From NCBI RefSeq assembly GCF_002307355.1, contig NZ_CP017481.1:1984001-2048000 (forward strand): a stretch of 64,000 nucleotides of DNA, given 5' to 3'. Both the position numbers and the translations under genes were made by a program. The first letter of the stretch is position 1. Each line of letters opens with the position of its first letter. Positions 37,008 to 43,643 of this stretch are shown here, one piece after another. The stretch comes from Pectobacterium polaris. GTDB lineage: Bacteria > Pseudomonadota > Gammaproteobacteria > Enterobacterales > Enterobacteriaceae. Below the pieces are notes generated by a model, which was not told the origin of the DNA, searched no databases, and worked only from the letters and a program-made list of their open reading frames with translations.

Positions 37008-37186
37008 CTATCCATGACCTGCATCAACAGCGTGTTTTGTTGGTATTTTACCTGACTTGATGGCTTAAAGAATCAACTCTGTTGCTTGTTATGGTCCGGG
37101 GATTTGGACTGGTTAGATTGACTTGACCAATTTTTTGGTGGCTAATTATGGTTGAAATATATACAAGAAATAAATGGGAGGACGTT

Positions 37187-37432
37187 ATGGAAAAGGTCAA
37201 CATCTACGAAGCAAAAACGAATCTTTCCAAACGACTTAATGGTGTGATGAAAACGGGAGAGCCATTCCTGATTACGCGTAATGGTAATACGTTGATAAAG
37301 GTTGTGGCCTACACAGAAGAGAAGCCAAAGCGTAAACTGAATTTTATAAAGGCTAAAGGAACGGTTCCGGATAACGTTGATGAGTTTAACAGCACAGAAA
37401 TTCAGGGTATGTTTGAAGGGGGGTATGAATAA
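37187..37432 (+). CDS. Phd/YefM-like antitoxin (partner toxin broken)
   Basis: The ATG at 37187 follows GGGAGG, giving 81 residues (MEKVNIYEAKTNLSKRLNGV). The N-terminal Phd/YefM DNA-binding fold is clear (EAKTNLSKRLNGVMKTGEPF, LITRNGNTLIKVV), followed by a short acidic C-terminal toxin-binding tail. The stop codon lies within ATGAATAA, which would start the toxin gene in the usual overlapping VapBC-type arrangement. That toxin frame is destroyed, so this is an orphan antitoxin. Confidence 0.85.
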   Translation: MEKVNIYEAKTNLSKRLNGVMKTGEPFLITRNGNTLIKVVAYTEEKPKRKLNFIKAKGTVPDNVDEFNSTEIQGMFEGGYE

Positions 37433-38215: not shown

Positions 38216-38425
38216 TTAAATTTTTTGCGTAGGATAGCTGTTTCTAATATTATGGCTAAAATAAGAACCAACAGAGCCTGCATTTAACAAATCAGTATAA
38301 ATATTTTCTGGAACACTATAATACTGATAGATTCCTCCATTATTAAACTCTATTTCAAGAGTTAAAGAATCACTATCATAGCCAACTGATGCTATATTTG
38401 AAGAGCTAACAGCTATTCTTTCCAT
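38216..38425 (-). CDS. KTSC-domain protein
   Basis: The 69-residue protein is almost entirely one KTSC domain (SSNIASVGYDSDSLTLEIEF, then NNGGIYQYYSVPENIYTDLL and GSYFSHNIRNSYPT). The domain is known from the C-terminus of some lysyl-tRNA synthetases and from phage and stand-alone proteins; its function is not settled. It begins 1 base after the HerA stop on the same strand, so it is very likely co-transcribed with the SIR2-HerA cassette. Confidence 0.85.
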   Translation of the reverse strand: MERIAVSSSNIASVGYDSDSLTLEIEFNNGGIYQYYSVPENIYTDLLNAGSVGSYFSHNIRNSYPTQKI

Positions 38426-38426
38426 T

Positions 38427-40214
38427 TCACTTATCCTCTTTTATTGGTTTACTTAAACGCCATGCTTCTATTAACTTGGAGTAATCTCTATCGGGGTCTC
38501 TAGGTTTAGCCCAAGCTTTACTAACTTCAGGGTCTTGACTATCTGGATAGAATCCTTGAGGTGGTAGTTTAAACTTGCACCTTGAGGGGAGCTTAACAGC
38601 TTCTCCAATAATAATTGCTTCTCCTGTTCTTAGGATAGGCAATGAATCGATTAGCGAACTGAGTCCATCTGACATAGCTGCTTTGACTTTAGAGCGATCA
38701 TTTGCATTCGTCAGTCTCAGTGCAAAGAGAGTCCCACATTGAGATAAAATGGTATCATCAATTTCAGATGGTCTTTGGCTGATAATCATAAGACCTACAC
38801 CAAATTTCCTGCCTTCTTTAGCTATTCGTTGAACTAAATTATTAGTTAAACCATCATCTCTGCTAGAAAGATATCTATGAGCTTCTTCTAGAACGAATAA
38901 AACAGGGTTTTTCTTTAGTCCTGATTTTAAATTTCTACCCCATAGAGAGGCTTCAAATATAATGCTCATTATTGAACTCAGGAGCATATCTAATTGAGTA
39001 GATGGCATACCGGATAAATCTAGTATAGAAATAGGTTTGTCATGATTCAACCATTCACTTAGAAGGTCATCTAAGTCTTTTTCTATCACTCCGTTTTCAT
39101 CAGGAGTGTAGCTCTCAGGTGAAAGAAAAAAAGAATACTGACTATCAAGTAATCTCGATTTCATTAAATTTAATTGTTTTGTTAATACATTGTTTCCTTT
39201 CTTGAAGGGCGGTGTACTAGATGTTCCAGGAGGTCTAAATTTAGGAGGGGTTAGTGATTTAGCATCACCAGAAATTTCATCTTTGAAAGCAGGAGTTGTG
39301 AAGTCTTTTTCTAAATATGTTGCTGTATCATCAAATATAGAGCTATACCATAATTTTTTAAGGTCGAATGGTAGTGGAGTAAATGAAGTTACTTTGCTTT
39401 CATCAATGTAATTTATTTTGTTTTCACTGATTGATTTCTTTTTCTCTTCAGTTATGAACTCAATCATAGAATTTTTGCTTAGTTCGTTAATATTTCCGCA
39501 AAGAAAATCAATCAATTTATCCGTAGGAAGAGCCCAATAGGGAATATTTAGTTTACTCTCATCTTGAGATGGGTCAACAGAGAAAACTTTAGCTATATCT
39601 TTGAGGGCTGTTGAATACTCGCCATGTATATCAACTAATAGGATTCTTGAAGAACTTTCTTCCTTATCACTAAATATACAAATTGAGCGAAGCAAGCCAG
39701 ATACGCTGGTTGATTTTCCCGATCCTGTAGAGCCTACGATTGCAGAATGCCTTGTTACTAATTTATCAATATCTAAATTAACATCTATGCTTTCTGAACT
39801 AGCTAATTTTCCGACATTGATCAGATTTTCACTTTCTGAACCATATACAAGTTTCAAATCTGAATCCAGTACCATGTGAACATCATCACCAACTGATGGA
39901 TATTGACTTATTCCTCTATCGAAAAATCCACAAGAACTTTCACCGATGAGTTCAACAATCATAACTCTGTTATCGGAGGACACGTTATCGTCTTTATCAA
40001 TGATTGAGCTTTCATTACTTGAGGCAACTACACCATAAAGATCATTATAACCTTGTGGTATCCTAACAAAACTTCCAACTTGTCCTACTTTATGAGTCCT
40101 ACCTTCAACAACAAGTAAACCTGAAATTACTTTCGGCGAAAGTTTAATTGTGACGGAAGAACTAGATATTGAAGATATGATTCCAATAGAGGTCGATTTC
40201 AATTTATTGTTCAT
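38427..40214 (-). CDS. HerA-like ATPase of a SIR2-HerA defence system
   Basis: I set the start at the ATG at 40214 (595 residues), preceded by GAGGTTG and overlapping the SIR2 stop by 11 bases; the open frame to 40277 is less likely. An N-terminal HAS-barrel-like region (VGQVGSFVRIPQGYNDLYGV) precedes Walker A GSTGSGKST (residues 161-169), Walker B LFVLEEAH (439-446) and the HerA/FtsK core (RIAKEGRKFGVGLMIISQRP). HerA hexamers translocate on DNA. Paired with SIR2 they form the described anti-phage NADase system. AT-rich, and lies in the ssrA-linked island. Confidence 0.9.
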   Translation of the reverse strand: MNNKLKSTSIGIISSISSSSVTIKLSPKVISGLLVVEGRTHKVGQVGSFVRIPQGYNDLYGVVASSNESSIIDKDDNVSSDNRVMIVELIGESSCGFFDRGISQYPSVGDDVHMVLDSDLKLVYGSESENLINVGKLASSESIDVNLDIDKLVTRHSAIVGSTGSGKSTSVSGLLRSICIFSDKEESSSRILLVDIHGEYSTALKDIAKVFSVDPSQDESKLNIPYWALPTDKLIDFLCGNINELSKNSMIEFITEEKKKSISENKINYIDESKVTSFTPLPFDLKKLWYSSIFDDTATYLEKDFTTPAFKDEISGDAKSLTPPKFRPPGTSSTPPFKKGNNVLTKQLNLMKSRLLDSQYSFFLSPESYTPDENGVIEKDLDDLLSEWLNHDKPISILDLSGMPSTQLDMLLSSIMSIIFEASLWGRNLKSGLKKNPVLFVLEEAHRYLSSRDDGLTNNLVQRIAKEGRKFGVGLMIISQRPSEIDDTILSQCGTLFALRLTNANDRSKVKAAMSDGLSSLIDSLPILRTGEAIIIGEAVKLPSRCKFKLPPQGFYPDSQDPEVSKAWAKPRDPDRDYSKLIEAWRLSKPIKEDK

Positions 40215-41391
40215 TTTTTTCAACCTCAAGAGGTAATTCATGCGGCTCTGATGAAGTTGCAACCTCACCACCAGCAATCGCTAGAAATCTTGCTAGTAAT
40301 TTAAAATCACCTAAAGTAAATTCTTTATCTTCGTTTAAATACTCTTTTCGAACTAACTCCCAATTTTTACTTGGAAGTTCTCCAGTTTTCCAAATTGCAT
40401 TAATTGTGTTTATAACTGCACCATCTTTGCAGTAAATGCTAAGGTTAGGATTTCTTTTGGCTAAATCGACGGCGTACGATTCTTCTTCTAATTTTTTGTA
40501 TTGAAAAGCTATTACTGCACTTGTTGGATTCGCCGATAAGCATTCGCTAATTTTTGATGAAATGTGTGCATCTGCAAAAGAAAAACCGGTTGTAATTAGT
40601 AAGGAGTCAGGTTCCATCAAAAAATTTTTTAAACGCTCAAATAATGCAGAAAAGGGAGCTGCTTGTGTTTGAGAATATTTTATATGCGAAGGATAAACCA
40701 TATTAGATACTTCACATTCGGGGAGCCTTGTTACCTGTCCATTATCTCGCATCATCCAACCTATTGAACCATGTAACTTCCATAGCCTTACCCATCTAGG
40801 AGGTAGATCATTTGTTGAAATACTGGCAGGATCAAAAAAAGCGAATCTTGAACCAGTAAACCCATCAAAGAAAGGTGTTTGAGAACGTTCTAATGCATCC
40901 TCACATAATAAATCGTAATTTGTGGTGAATATCTCCACACCGTGACTTCGGTTAATTCCATTTACCCAAGAAATTAACTCGCTGTACGGATTATCCTTTT
41001 CTGGTAAAGATTTGCTAACTACATCTTTTATTTTAGAGCAAATGGCTAATTCTAGTTCTCTATATTTATTGGCATTTGCACCATGAACTTCATGGTCTCC
41101 AATGATGTCAGCTAATGTCCTCACATCAGATAATATTTTTTCTAAGTTATTTTTTATATTACCTTCAAGATTTTCAAATATTTTAAGAAGATCATCACTC
41201 AAAGATTTTTTAACATGGCTAGTAAGTCCATCAATGTTTGGGATTAATGGTTCATAATCACCATTATGCCCTACATTAATGCTCACTGGGGCGCCAGCTC
41301 CAATTAATATTCCTATTTTTTTTCTTCCATTTGTTACTATTTGTCTAAAATCAAACATATACGTATCGGGGTTGTGAATAGATGCAATCAT
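40204..41391 (-). CDS. SIR2-like NADase of a SIR2-HerA defence system
   Basis: The chosen start is the ATG at 41391 (395 residues); a TTG at 41412, inside the integrase remnant, is possible. Neither has a strong ribosome site. SIR2 features are intact: NAD-binding ILIGAGAPVS (GAG at 31-33), FTTNYD with Asn158, WKLHGSIGW with catalytic His207, and TTGFSFADAHISS. Defence-type SIR2 domains cleave NAD+ to stop infection. It lies upstream of and overlaps herA. Confidence 0.9.
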   Translation of the reverse strand: MIASIHNPDTYMFDFRQIVTNGRKKIGILIGAGAPVSINVGHNGDYEPLIPNIDGLTSHVKKSLSDDLLKIFENLEGNIKNNLEKILSDVRTLADIIGDHEVHGANANKYRELELAICSKIKDVVSKSLPEKDNPYSELISWVNGINRSHGVEIFTTNYDLLCEDALERSQTPFFDGFTGSRFAFFDPASISTNDLPPRWVRLWKLHGSIGWMMRDNGQVTRLPECEVSNMVYPSHIKYSQTQAAPFSALFERLKNFLMEPDSLLITTGFSFADAHISSKISECLSANPTSAVIAFQYKKLEEESYAVDLAKRNPNLSIYCKDGAVINTINAIWKTGELPSKNWELVRKEYLNEDKEFTLGDFKLLARFLAIAGGEVATSSEPHELPLEVEKNEQ

Positions 41392-41408: not shown

Positions 41409-41645
41409 TCAATTAAAGGTACGAGACATATAATTTTCCAACCAACCCATAAAATAGATCCGTTGCGTAAGATAAAGTGAGCGATTATATACTCTACGGA
41501 CATCATTTTTTTCTGAGTGAACCAAGGCGGAAACTATGAATGACATCAGGGTTTAATCTAGCTTCATTCATGGCAACGCTGGTTATTGAGCGTAGACCAT
41601 GTTTCCCCAGCTTTCCACTATAAAGGTGTATTTGCGTTTTAGTTG
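41409..41645 (-). pseudogene. C-terminal remnant of a P4-type tyrosine recombinase (integrase)
   Basis: The minus strand reads GKLGKHGLRSITSVAMNEA, then RLNPDVIHSF; after a one-base shift at an A7 run (41516-41522) it continues KNDVRRVYNRSLYLTQRIYF, then MGWLENYM and a stop. This is the conserved end of P4-like integrases (HG.RS.AS..NE, the LAH..KN.VRRAYNR block with the catalytic Tyr, then a W-rich tail). The N-terminal two thirds are gone. The remnant points the same way as ssrA and ends next to the SIR2 start. Confidence 0.85.
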
Positions 41646-41728
41646 TTCATAGACTTTTTCTAGGAAGGTGAAAGGTGAGAAGAGCATGTTTATGGTTTTC
41701 ACCGAGCAGGTCGGCGTTAGCAGCCTTT

Positions 41729-41861
41729 ATACCAATACTCTCTGGATTCAGGCGAACATTGTCAGACCGATACGGACACAAAAAACCATAGGGTTTGTGC
41801 TGTGCGAGCTTTCTGGATTTCACCCGACGTACCCGGATCATAATGGCTGGGGGAATCTGAA
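41729..41861. repeat. degenerate duplicate of the ssrA 3' end and its flank
   Basis: It begins TATACCAATACTCTCTGGAT and matches 43491-43548 at about 86 percent over 58 bases (up to CGGACACAAAAAA). It then continues as a diverged copy of the ssrA terminator (AGGGTTTGTGC, TGTGCGAGCTTT) and ends with GCTGGGGGAATCTGAA, matching the ssrA 3' end GCTGGGGGGATTTGAA. This is what a decayed attachment site of an ssrA-targeting element would look like, and it lies beside the integrase remnant. Confidence 0.75.
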
Positions 41862-41974: not shown

Positions 41975-42151
41975 TCAATTTTCACTCAATTCTTTACGCC
42001 TTTTGATCGCAGAGAGTAATGCTGGTGAAATTGGCACTTCGGATAGTAGGGTAGTTGCGAATTGATGTTGTTCTTCAATCTCTAGCTTAAGCAACATTGC
42101 CTCTTCGTTTTTTGGCGAACGCTTTTCTTCACATTTTAATTTATAACTCAT
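41975..42151 (-). pseudogene. probable truncated toxin frame after the antitoxin
   Basis: The 58-codon frame starts at an ATG that overlaps the antitoxin stop (ATGAGTTATAA), the usual arrangement of RelE/StbE-type toxins. Only the first residues (MSYKLK) resemble such toxins. The rest (EEQHQFATTLLSEVPISPAL and a basic tail) has no RelE features. It may be a toxin start fused to unrelated sequence by deletion, or a small unrelated gene. Confidence 0.4.
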
Positions 42152-42392
42152 CCAGATCGACCCTAACGCGTTTCCCTTTCATCCGGGAACGGGCGATTTT
42201 GGCAAGTTCGATATCTTCCTGATAGTCAGCCAGCGCTTCCCATGTTTCTGGGGAAACATAGTAGCCAGAGATGCGGCCATTGGTTAACACAGCTACAGGC
42301 TCGCCGTTAGCTTCTTTCAGCGCGGCATTGGGCGATTTTTTAAAGTCGCTGATACTCACGGCTGCATTGGCAAGGATTGGTTGTACGGACAT
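42141..42392 (-). CDS. Phd/YefM (StbD-like) antitoxin
   Basis: The 83-residue protein has a clear Phd/YefM-type fold (ANAAVSISDFKKSPNAALKE, then EPVAVLTNGRISGYYVSPET) and a helical toxin-binding tail (DIELAKIARSRMKGK). StbD-like antitoxins normally precede a RelE-family StbE toxin, but only a short, mostly unrelated frame follows here. A second antitoxin without an intact toxin in the same island. Confidence 0.88.
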   Translation of the reverse strand: MSVQPILANAAVSISDFKKSPNAALKEANGEPVAVLTNGRISGYYVSPETWEALADYQEDIELAKIARSRMKGKRVRVDLDEL

Positions 42393-42521: not shown

Positions 42522-42992
42522 ATGGATACTACTGAGGAACTCAATAATACATATTATTATCATGGGCATGGAAATTTAACTGCTGGTGAGTTATTTAACC
42601 TGATCTTTCTTGAAAATTTTTCTTCTCGCACCGGTTTAGAGATTACAGCGGCGGTGCTGATCCTCTCAGGGCAACCCTATCTGAAGGTATCAGGGAAACT
42701 ATCCGCCGCCACTGCGACGCCCGGAACCAGTGTTGCTTCCAGAGTATCACGAGCTTTGCTAAGAGATTTACGCTTCCCTTATGGGTTAAGGCCGCTCACG
42801 CCTATGGGAAAAAACCTCGCGACATTGAAGATGGTTCCTACGAATAAGATTGCCTCTTTTGTTGGTCGTTATATTCCATGGATAGGCTACGTCCAATTGA
42901 TAGCTATAATGCAATCGGTAGCAAGGGACACCCGTCGACAGTATAACCTGATCGCTAGGCCAAAAGACCGTATTGAATGGACGTATTTCTGA
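42522..42992 (+). CDS. STM2901-like protein
   Basis: The 156-residue protein is preceded by GGGAGG. The pattern (TYYYHGHGNLTAGELFNLIF, AAVLILSGQPYL, ASRVSRALLRDLRFPYG, ASFVGRYIPWIGYVQLI, ending near IARPKDRIEW) matches, from memory, a small family seen in Salmonella and other enterobacteria next to DUF1493 genes. One or two hydrophobic segments suggest membrane contact. Function unknown. It overlaps the DUF1493 gene by one base. Confidence 0.7.
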   Translation: MDTTEELNNTYYYHGHGNLTAGELFNLIFLENFSSRTGLEITAAVLILSGQPYLKVSGKLSAATATPGTSVASRVSRALLRDLRFPYGLRPLTPMGKNLATLKMVPTNKIASFVGRYIPWIGYVQLIAIMQSVARDTRRQYNLIARPKDRIEWTYF

Positions 42993-43321
42993 TGAGCAAA
43001 AGAGATATCGAAAATGAGGTTATTCAATACCTCATGGAACGTTACCCGATTAGGAAACATTGGTTTAAATCCGGTATTAGGCAAGTCACTAAAGACTGGA
43101 CGTTACAGGATGATTACCAGTTTCTGCCGGAAGATGCTCACGATTTTCTTCTCGATGTATTCGGACATTTTAATATTGATTATTCAAACTTCGAAGGAAG
43201 AAATTATTTTGAATATGAGTATCCAATCTGGCAAAAGAAACCACTATCGAAAGCGTTACAACCGCTCACTGTCGGGATGATTATTGAGTCAGCTAAAGCA
43301 GGGAAATGGTTATACGATTAG
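42992..43321 (+). CDS. DUF1493 family protein
   Basis: I choose the ATG at 42992 in a TGATG overlap (109 residues); an in-frame ATG at 42977 is also possible. The DUF1493 core is evident (TLQDDYQFLPEDAHDFLLDV, then FNIDYSNFEGRNYFEYEYP), with an acyl-carrier-like helical layout (DDxxxxPEDA). It commonly pairs with STM2901-like proteins in islands and prophages. Function unknown. Confidence 0.8.
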   Translation: MSKRDIENEVIQYLMERYPIRKHWFKSGIRQVTKDWTLQDDYQFLPEDAHDFLLDVFGHFNIDYSNFEGRNYFEYEYPIWQKKPLSKALQPLTVGMIIESAKAGKWLYD

Positions 43322-43490: not shown

Positions 43491-43643
43491 TATGCCAATA
43501 ATCTCTGGATTCAGGCGAATATTGTCGGACAATGACGGACACAAAAAAGCCCGCAGGGCTTGCGCCATGCGGGCTTTTCGTACTTCATCGGACTTATCTG
43601 GTAATAACCGATGTCTAAATTGGTGGAGCTGGGGGGATTTGAA
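43491..43643. repeat. ssrA-proximal copy of the duplicated flank
   Basis: This is the intact counterpart of 41729-41861. It includes TATGCCAATAATCTCTGGAT, the ssrA terminator and the last bases of ssrA (GCTGGGGGGATTTGAA), the usual attachment core of ssrA-targeting integrases. Confidence 0.75.
43547..43580 (-). terminator. rho-independent terminator of ssrA
   Basis: On the minus strand, AGCCCGC...GCGGGC encloses a 14-base loop and is followed by TTTTTT, about 40 bases after the mature tmRNA 3' end. Confidence 0.85.

Follow-up and report, generated by a model that had tools for sequence, protein, structure and literature searches.

A KTSC gene as the probable third component of a SIR2-HerA defence cassette in Pectobacterium polaris

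SIR2-HerA is described as a two-gene antiphage system. In a stretch of 64,000 nt from Pectobacterium polaris (contig NZ_CP017481.1, positions 1,984,001 to 2,048,000; hereafter the window), herA is followed directly by a third, very small gene encoding a KTSC-domain protein. Does this gene belong to the system, and if so, what might its product do there?

A three-gene cassette beside ssrA

The cassette occupies positions 38216-41391 of the minus strand, from the KTSC stop codon to the sir2 ATG, with sir2, herA and the KTSC gene all co-directional. The sir2 gene (40204-41391) encodes a putative SIR2-family NADase-like effector; its ATG is located at 41391 and an alternative TTG start 21 nt upstream, at 41412. 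Its stop codon (TAA, 40204-40206) lies beyond the herA ATG at 40214, giving an 11-nt overlap. The herA gene (38427-40214) encodes a predicted HerA-type ATPase/translocase of 595 aa from the ATG. The KTSC gene (38216-38425) starts with an ATG at 38425, one base from the herA stop (TGA, 38427-38429), has AGAGGA upstream of this ATG, and ends with TAA at 38216-38218; its product of 69 aa and net charge -4 is the counterpart of the C-terminal KTSC domain in fused HerA. The G+C content of sir2, herA and the KTSC gene is 34.7%, 35.3% and 30.0%, respectively, versus 50.1% for the whole window. The three genes form one tight AT-rich operon; the one-base spacing behind herA, the length of 69 residues and the shared AT-rich composition reported in the original prediction are all borne out.

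Pfam and PADLOC matches and catalytic motifs agree on the SIR2-HerA identity that had been proposed for the first two genes. The sir2 product matches SIR2_2 (PF13289, 1.8e-16) and the PADLOC SIR2 model PDLC04094 (1.3e-166), and the herA product matches DUF87/HerA (PF01935, 1.1e-33) and the PADLOC HerA model PDLC04105 (2.3e-149), each PADLOC model being far ahead of the others. The SIR2 protein bears the N-Y-D plus H catalytic signature (TTNYD at 163 and LHGS at 213, counting from the TTG start); a passage of PMC11263360 gives N, Y, D and H as key residues common to DSR2 and SIR2-HerA. HerA has a Walker A motif, GSTGSGKS, at 161 and an EEAH motif. The curated cut-offs of the NCBIfam models NF042942 (SIR2_antiphage, 64.2 of 500 bits) and NF042944 (HerA_antiphage_2, 247.1 of 850 bits) were not reached; these named models fit a different subtype. 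On sequence grounds, the cassette would be assigned to the SIR2-HerA subtype of PDB 8WLD and PADLOC PDLC04094+PDLC04105, as it has a SIR2, an adjacent HerA and a HerA-linked KTSC, the last of these being a clade feature found in this analysis and represented here by a separate gene instead of a fused domain.

The cassette is flanked by ssrA (tmRNA)/smpB on one side and by LysE / solute-binding-protein genes on the other. All 11 congeneric genomes compared contain the ssrA-smpB stretch at 95-98% identity, and the 9-10 kb stretches taken there from all 11 congeners gave no alignment to 38216-41391 at E 1e-10. Two congeners (G482 and G593) had no HerA match in the 398-genome HerA search described below, and the flanks in congener G658 (locus L186) are about 240 bp apart versus about 6.5 kb in the window. 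The cassette site is a variable insertion region adjoining ssrA. Fragments between sir2 and a 58-nt repeat (41409-41640) resemble, by eye, a degraded tyrosine integrase end; a 45-aa ORF within them had no Pfam match. The direct repeats themselves (41728-41785 and 43491-43548, 86% identical), near the 3' end of the tmRNA gene, are possible remnants of insertion events. Two Phd/YefM-like antitoxin ORFs, at 37148-37432 (plus strand) and 42141-42392 (minus strand), scored 32.5 and 29.0 bits against PF02604 (cut-off 29.8), and no toxin was identified beside either of them in the window; the latter is followed by a 58-aa ORF that matched no family. An STM2901-family gene and then a DUF1493 gene (42522-43321) are further cargo of the ssrA-side region, and parts of this gene pair align in three congener stretches (L183, L185 and L188).

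KTSC behind herA in one HerA clade

Loci were sampled by HerA first and KTSC was then sought behind herA, using two genome sets that both include the window's genome. Among 398 Pseudomonadota genomes, 10 had a HerA match with an E value no higher than 1e-80; KTSC was present directly behind herA in all eight scoring above 700 bits and in neither of the two loci at about 370 bits, while 51 of the 398 genomes carried any KTSC. The wide PADLOC HerA model produced 15 matches at E 1e-60 among 274 gammaproteobacterial genomes. All four clade members among them had KTSC, as a separate gene in the window, G044 and G218 and fused to HerA in G026. KTSC was absent behind herA in the remaining 11; the tree puts 10 of these outside the clade, and the eleventh (G262, with herA split in two pieces) is unplaced.

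A viral-contig search yielded 79 loci from the best 80 of 88 matches. Thirteen of these scored above 600 bits, two of their HerA sequences repeating others, and KTSC was found in 12 (11 separate and 1 fused); the thirteenth, L101, is truncated by the end of its contig. The other 66 loci from these best 80 matches, none above 411 bits, had no KTSC next to herA. An unlinked KTSC ORF was seen in one viral-contig HerA locus outside the clade (L141:347-634, minus strand), more than 3 kb from herA and on the opposite strand. KTSC was also present in 4/4 loci of a species-genome collection. Sixteen plasmid loci were examined: SIR2, HerA and KTSC occurred in that order in all 15 with HerA of at least 36% identity, and no such cassette was found in the one with HerA at 28%. 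Over the lower-scoring HerA loci, KTSC was found within 600 bp behind herA in 0 of 76 (79 tested, 3 cut). The profile used for this search was built from both HerA-linked and stand-alone KTSC, and three divergent KTSC proteins left out of it to serve as a control scored 1e-9 to 1e-11.

The KTSC-HerA association is real and steady in one HerA clade and not due to chance, and the survey of other SIR2-HerA loci suggested in the original prediction showed it to recur widely. The order SIR2-HerA-KTSC on one strand was kept in 27/27 separate-gene loci besides the window, with a median herA-KTSC gap of 3 nt (range -11 to 26). KTSC and HerA distances correlated with r 0.80 (25 of 28 loci) and SIR2 and HerA distances more highly, with 0.90; the former shows co-inheritance, not contact. 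In Agrobacterium pusense (L018:11920-22815), one of the 15 plasmid loci above, a transposon bearing transposase, recombinase and phosphonate genes has split herA, and KTSC still lies behind the second herA piece.

Fused KTSC domains and solved structures

On a HerA tree of 90 rows, built by a quick method and containing several long branches, a branch with SH-aLRT 99 split the 34 rows without KTSC from the KTSC-bearing rows (39 separate, 16 fused and 1 cut by a contig end). Fused rows appeared in three places, each amid separate-gene relatives: 14 of them form one clade, and the other two are L097, from a viral contig, and the PDB 8wiv HerA. Starred branches on the tree force at least three fusion changes. 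The KTSC side of the tree reaches Bacteroidota (L004), Ignavibacteriota (L003) and a haloarchaeal plasmid (L015). Database searches matched 165 fused-KTSC proteins, and the 120 listed among them share one architecture: the HerA core is present as far as model position 588-591 of 593, its end, then come 15-19 linker residues (17 residues in 97 proteins), and a KTSC domain closes the chain, flush in 119 of the 120. The fused HerA of G026 (L045) is missing its N-terminal part, and its 7-kb stretch yielded no SIR2.

The nearest solved SIR2 chain is that of 8w9l (3.8e-76), a sequence also present in 8wld and 8wof, and the nearest solved HerA chain is 8wiv_A (2.2e-143, residues 7-589). The window KTSC sequence matches residues 630-694 of the 696-residue 8wiv HerA chain. 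Its predicted structure matches a resolved domain of 8wld and 8wof (residues 614-696) at 53-54% identity. 8WIV is HerA alone, and the titles of 8wld and 8wof give a cryo-EM structure of a SIR2/HerA antiphage complex, which we take to be that of Paenibacillus sp. 453MF in Liao et al. (2024, NAR, gkae750). This complex therefore has the nearest SIR2, the nearest HerA and the same KTSC domain as the window, but its KTSC forms the C-terminus of a HerA of 696 residues, whereas that of the window is a separate 69-aa protein. The abstract of the Liao work reportedly describes a HerA hexamer stabilised by a unique C-terminal extension. Since 8wld and 8wof show the KTSC domain as a fused and resolved part of HerA, the described system already contains it. 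The overall interpretation in the original prediction is accordingly divided: a tightly coupled, recurring KTSC gene stands, but KTSC is no extra foreign to the described system, being the HerA C-terminus of a solved complex and joined to HerA in 120/120 listed fusions of the 165.

SIR2-HerA systems of other clades, represented by 8j4u/8su9 and 8yho/8yhx (presumably from E. coli and Staphylococcus) and by loci L104 and L113, likewise combine a SIR2 effector with a HerA ATPase, but their HerA is distant from that of the window (8j4u, 9.2e-33; 8yho, 7.1e-25). A KTSC search of the chains of these four structures found no match at E up to 10. L104 and L113 also differ in having no KTSC behind herA and a SIR2 that best matches PADLOC PDLC04088. 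DUF4297-HerA is similar in pairing an effector with a HerA ring and in having a C-terminal HerA element, a hook that, in a passage of PMC11291478, docks on the adjacent subunit and reinforces the ring; it differs in its nuclease effector and in having the hook where the window system has KTSC. A passage of PMC12198126, citing Liao et al., states that a hook of this kind was not seen in their SIR2-HerA. Stand-alone KTSC structures (7X8C from Methanolobus vulcani and 4RGI, YPO2434) are separate small proteins, of a kind whose sampled copies are mostly basic.

The window KTSC protein matches PF13619 across positions 1-58 of 58 (6.9e-27; 93.4 bits versus a gathering cut-off of 25), and the PADLOC models searched gave it no match at E 0.01. 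Its gene is under purifying selection, with rough dN/dS values of about 0.10 and 0.03 against two relatives (dS 1.6 and 5.0). Comparison of the AlphaFold2 model (mean pLDDT 95.6) with solved folds placed only KTSC proteins above background. Since the model matches only KTSC folds among solved structures, a role as accessory effector, one of those originally suggested, looks least likely.

Role of the third gene

We consider it probable, with moderate confidence, that the locus encodes a three-gene SIR2-HerA defence in which KTSC is a detached HerA C-terminal domain serving as a structural subunit of the SIR2-HerA assembly. By analogy with published work on relatives, SIR2 would be the NADase effector, and HerA an ATPase ring that joins it in the assembly and switches it on. 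The three proteins would be translated from one mRNA, and KTSC would then most likely take a structural place on the HerA ring, where it may support the HerA oligomer or the SIR2-HerA assembly in the manner of the fused domain in the solved complex. The observations behind this proposal are the gene order, the clade-wide association, the repeated fusion, the homology to one of the resolved domains of the complex and the acidic composition. Docking on HerA is likely; clamping of the ring is an informed guess that draws on the fused structure and on the analogy to DUF4297-HerA. KTSC could occupy the place of the hook, because that hook strengthens the ring and the SIR2-HerA of Liao et al. is hook-less according to the passage of PMC12198126. 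Against the proposal, KTSC is dispensable for the basic chemistry, as HerA systems outside the clade do without it; the truncated fused HerA of G026, for which no SIR2 was found, also counts against it.

Charge bears on the possibility that KTSC is a DNA or RNA sensor, binding invading nucleic acid and delivering it to HerA, which would switch on SIR2. Such a role would agree with parts of the literature: Iyer et al. 2022 (PMC9503650) call KTSC DNA-binding in one passage and mention, as unpublished observations, HerA + KTSC variants in which an endoDNase replaces the sirtuin, and a passage of PMC7824862, a 2021 paper that they cite for KTSC, describes an RNA-binding domain. It would also suit the 59 stand-alone KTSC copies from the 398-genome search, whose median net charge is +3 (50 positive, 6 zero and 3 negative). 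Separate HerA-linked KTSC instead has a median of -3, with 36 of 37 distinct copies at -1 or below and one at +1 (rank test p about 5e-15, the rows not being independent), and within the host genome the cassette copy at -4 contrasts with +4 and +2 for the other two. These latter genes lie at L048:5838-6131 and L049:5693-5905 (minus strand), one after a DosC-like diguanylate cyclase gene and one between Fe-ADH-like and GST-like genes. Because HerA-linked KTSC is acidic and stand-alone KTSC mostly basic, the sequences argue against DNA binding by the former, and docking on a protein would fit its charge; we regard the sensor as improbable.

The acidic charge, together with the small size, close coupling and last position of the gene, would suit an antitoxin-like regulator that keeps SIR2-HerA inactive before infection and is removed from it by a phage trigger. 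This is unlikely, however: KTSC became permanently joined to HerA on at least three occasions, and a fused domain cannot be freely released; the solved complex, too, includes the KTSC domain. We give very little credence to a KTSC that has an independent function, perhaps one involving RNA as has been guessed for the stand-alone proteins, and only rides along: KTSC genes do occur in 51 of 398 genomes, often away from HerA and beside unrelated genes, but the steady adjacency across bacteria and an archaeon, the repeated fusion and the distinct charge class speak against it. More tentatively, and with considerable doubt, HerA-linked KTSC may be a distinct acidified set that went from a basic nucleic-acid-type module to a dedicated third SIR2-HerA subunit; because the separate-gene form allows its loss or displacement, it could then be a switch or trigger sensor, a role that is hidden in the solved fused form.

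Several loci show KTSC in other company. A 345-aa protein is encoded directly after KTSC in one subclade (L050:5036-6073; L069:2377-3414 and L071:2206-3243, both minus strand; L098:6107-7144), with 72-92% identity among copies; L014 of the same subclade is without it. It had no Pfam match (three copies), no PADLOC match (two copies) and no solved relative. A GDI...IAIECKF stretch was noted by eye, which we take to resemble a PD-(D/E)XK nuclease motif, and the gene is a possible fourth gene of the cassette. In the haloarchaeon Natrinema zhouii (L015:5667-6755), the ORFs behind the cassette carry annotations as pieces of an ADP-ribosylglycohydrolase, the second matching PF03747 (4e-34); these would fit ADP-ribose chemistry. 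In Halorubrum (L056:1181-4213), an E2/UBC-like gene precedes a ThiF-like gene whose end overlaps with a KTSC gene, and two further haloarchaeal plasmid matches have KTSC beside ThiF. KTSC may serve other systems too.

In the literature searched, which excluded the main structure papers, we found no published account of a KTSC gene in SIR2-HerA; a table in the 2025 review PMC12198126 lists SIR2-HerA activation as unclear. One HerA clade keeps KTSC without exception in these samples, as a gene or as a fusion. Because the PADLOC models give KTSC no match, two-gene calls of SIR2-HerA omit a steady part of the system, and separate-gene loci cloned on the basis of these calls may be incomplete. As a separate gene that can be deleted without touching HerA, KTSC offers a removable handle on SIR2-HerA activation.
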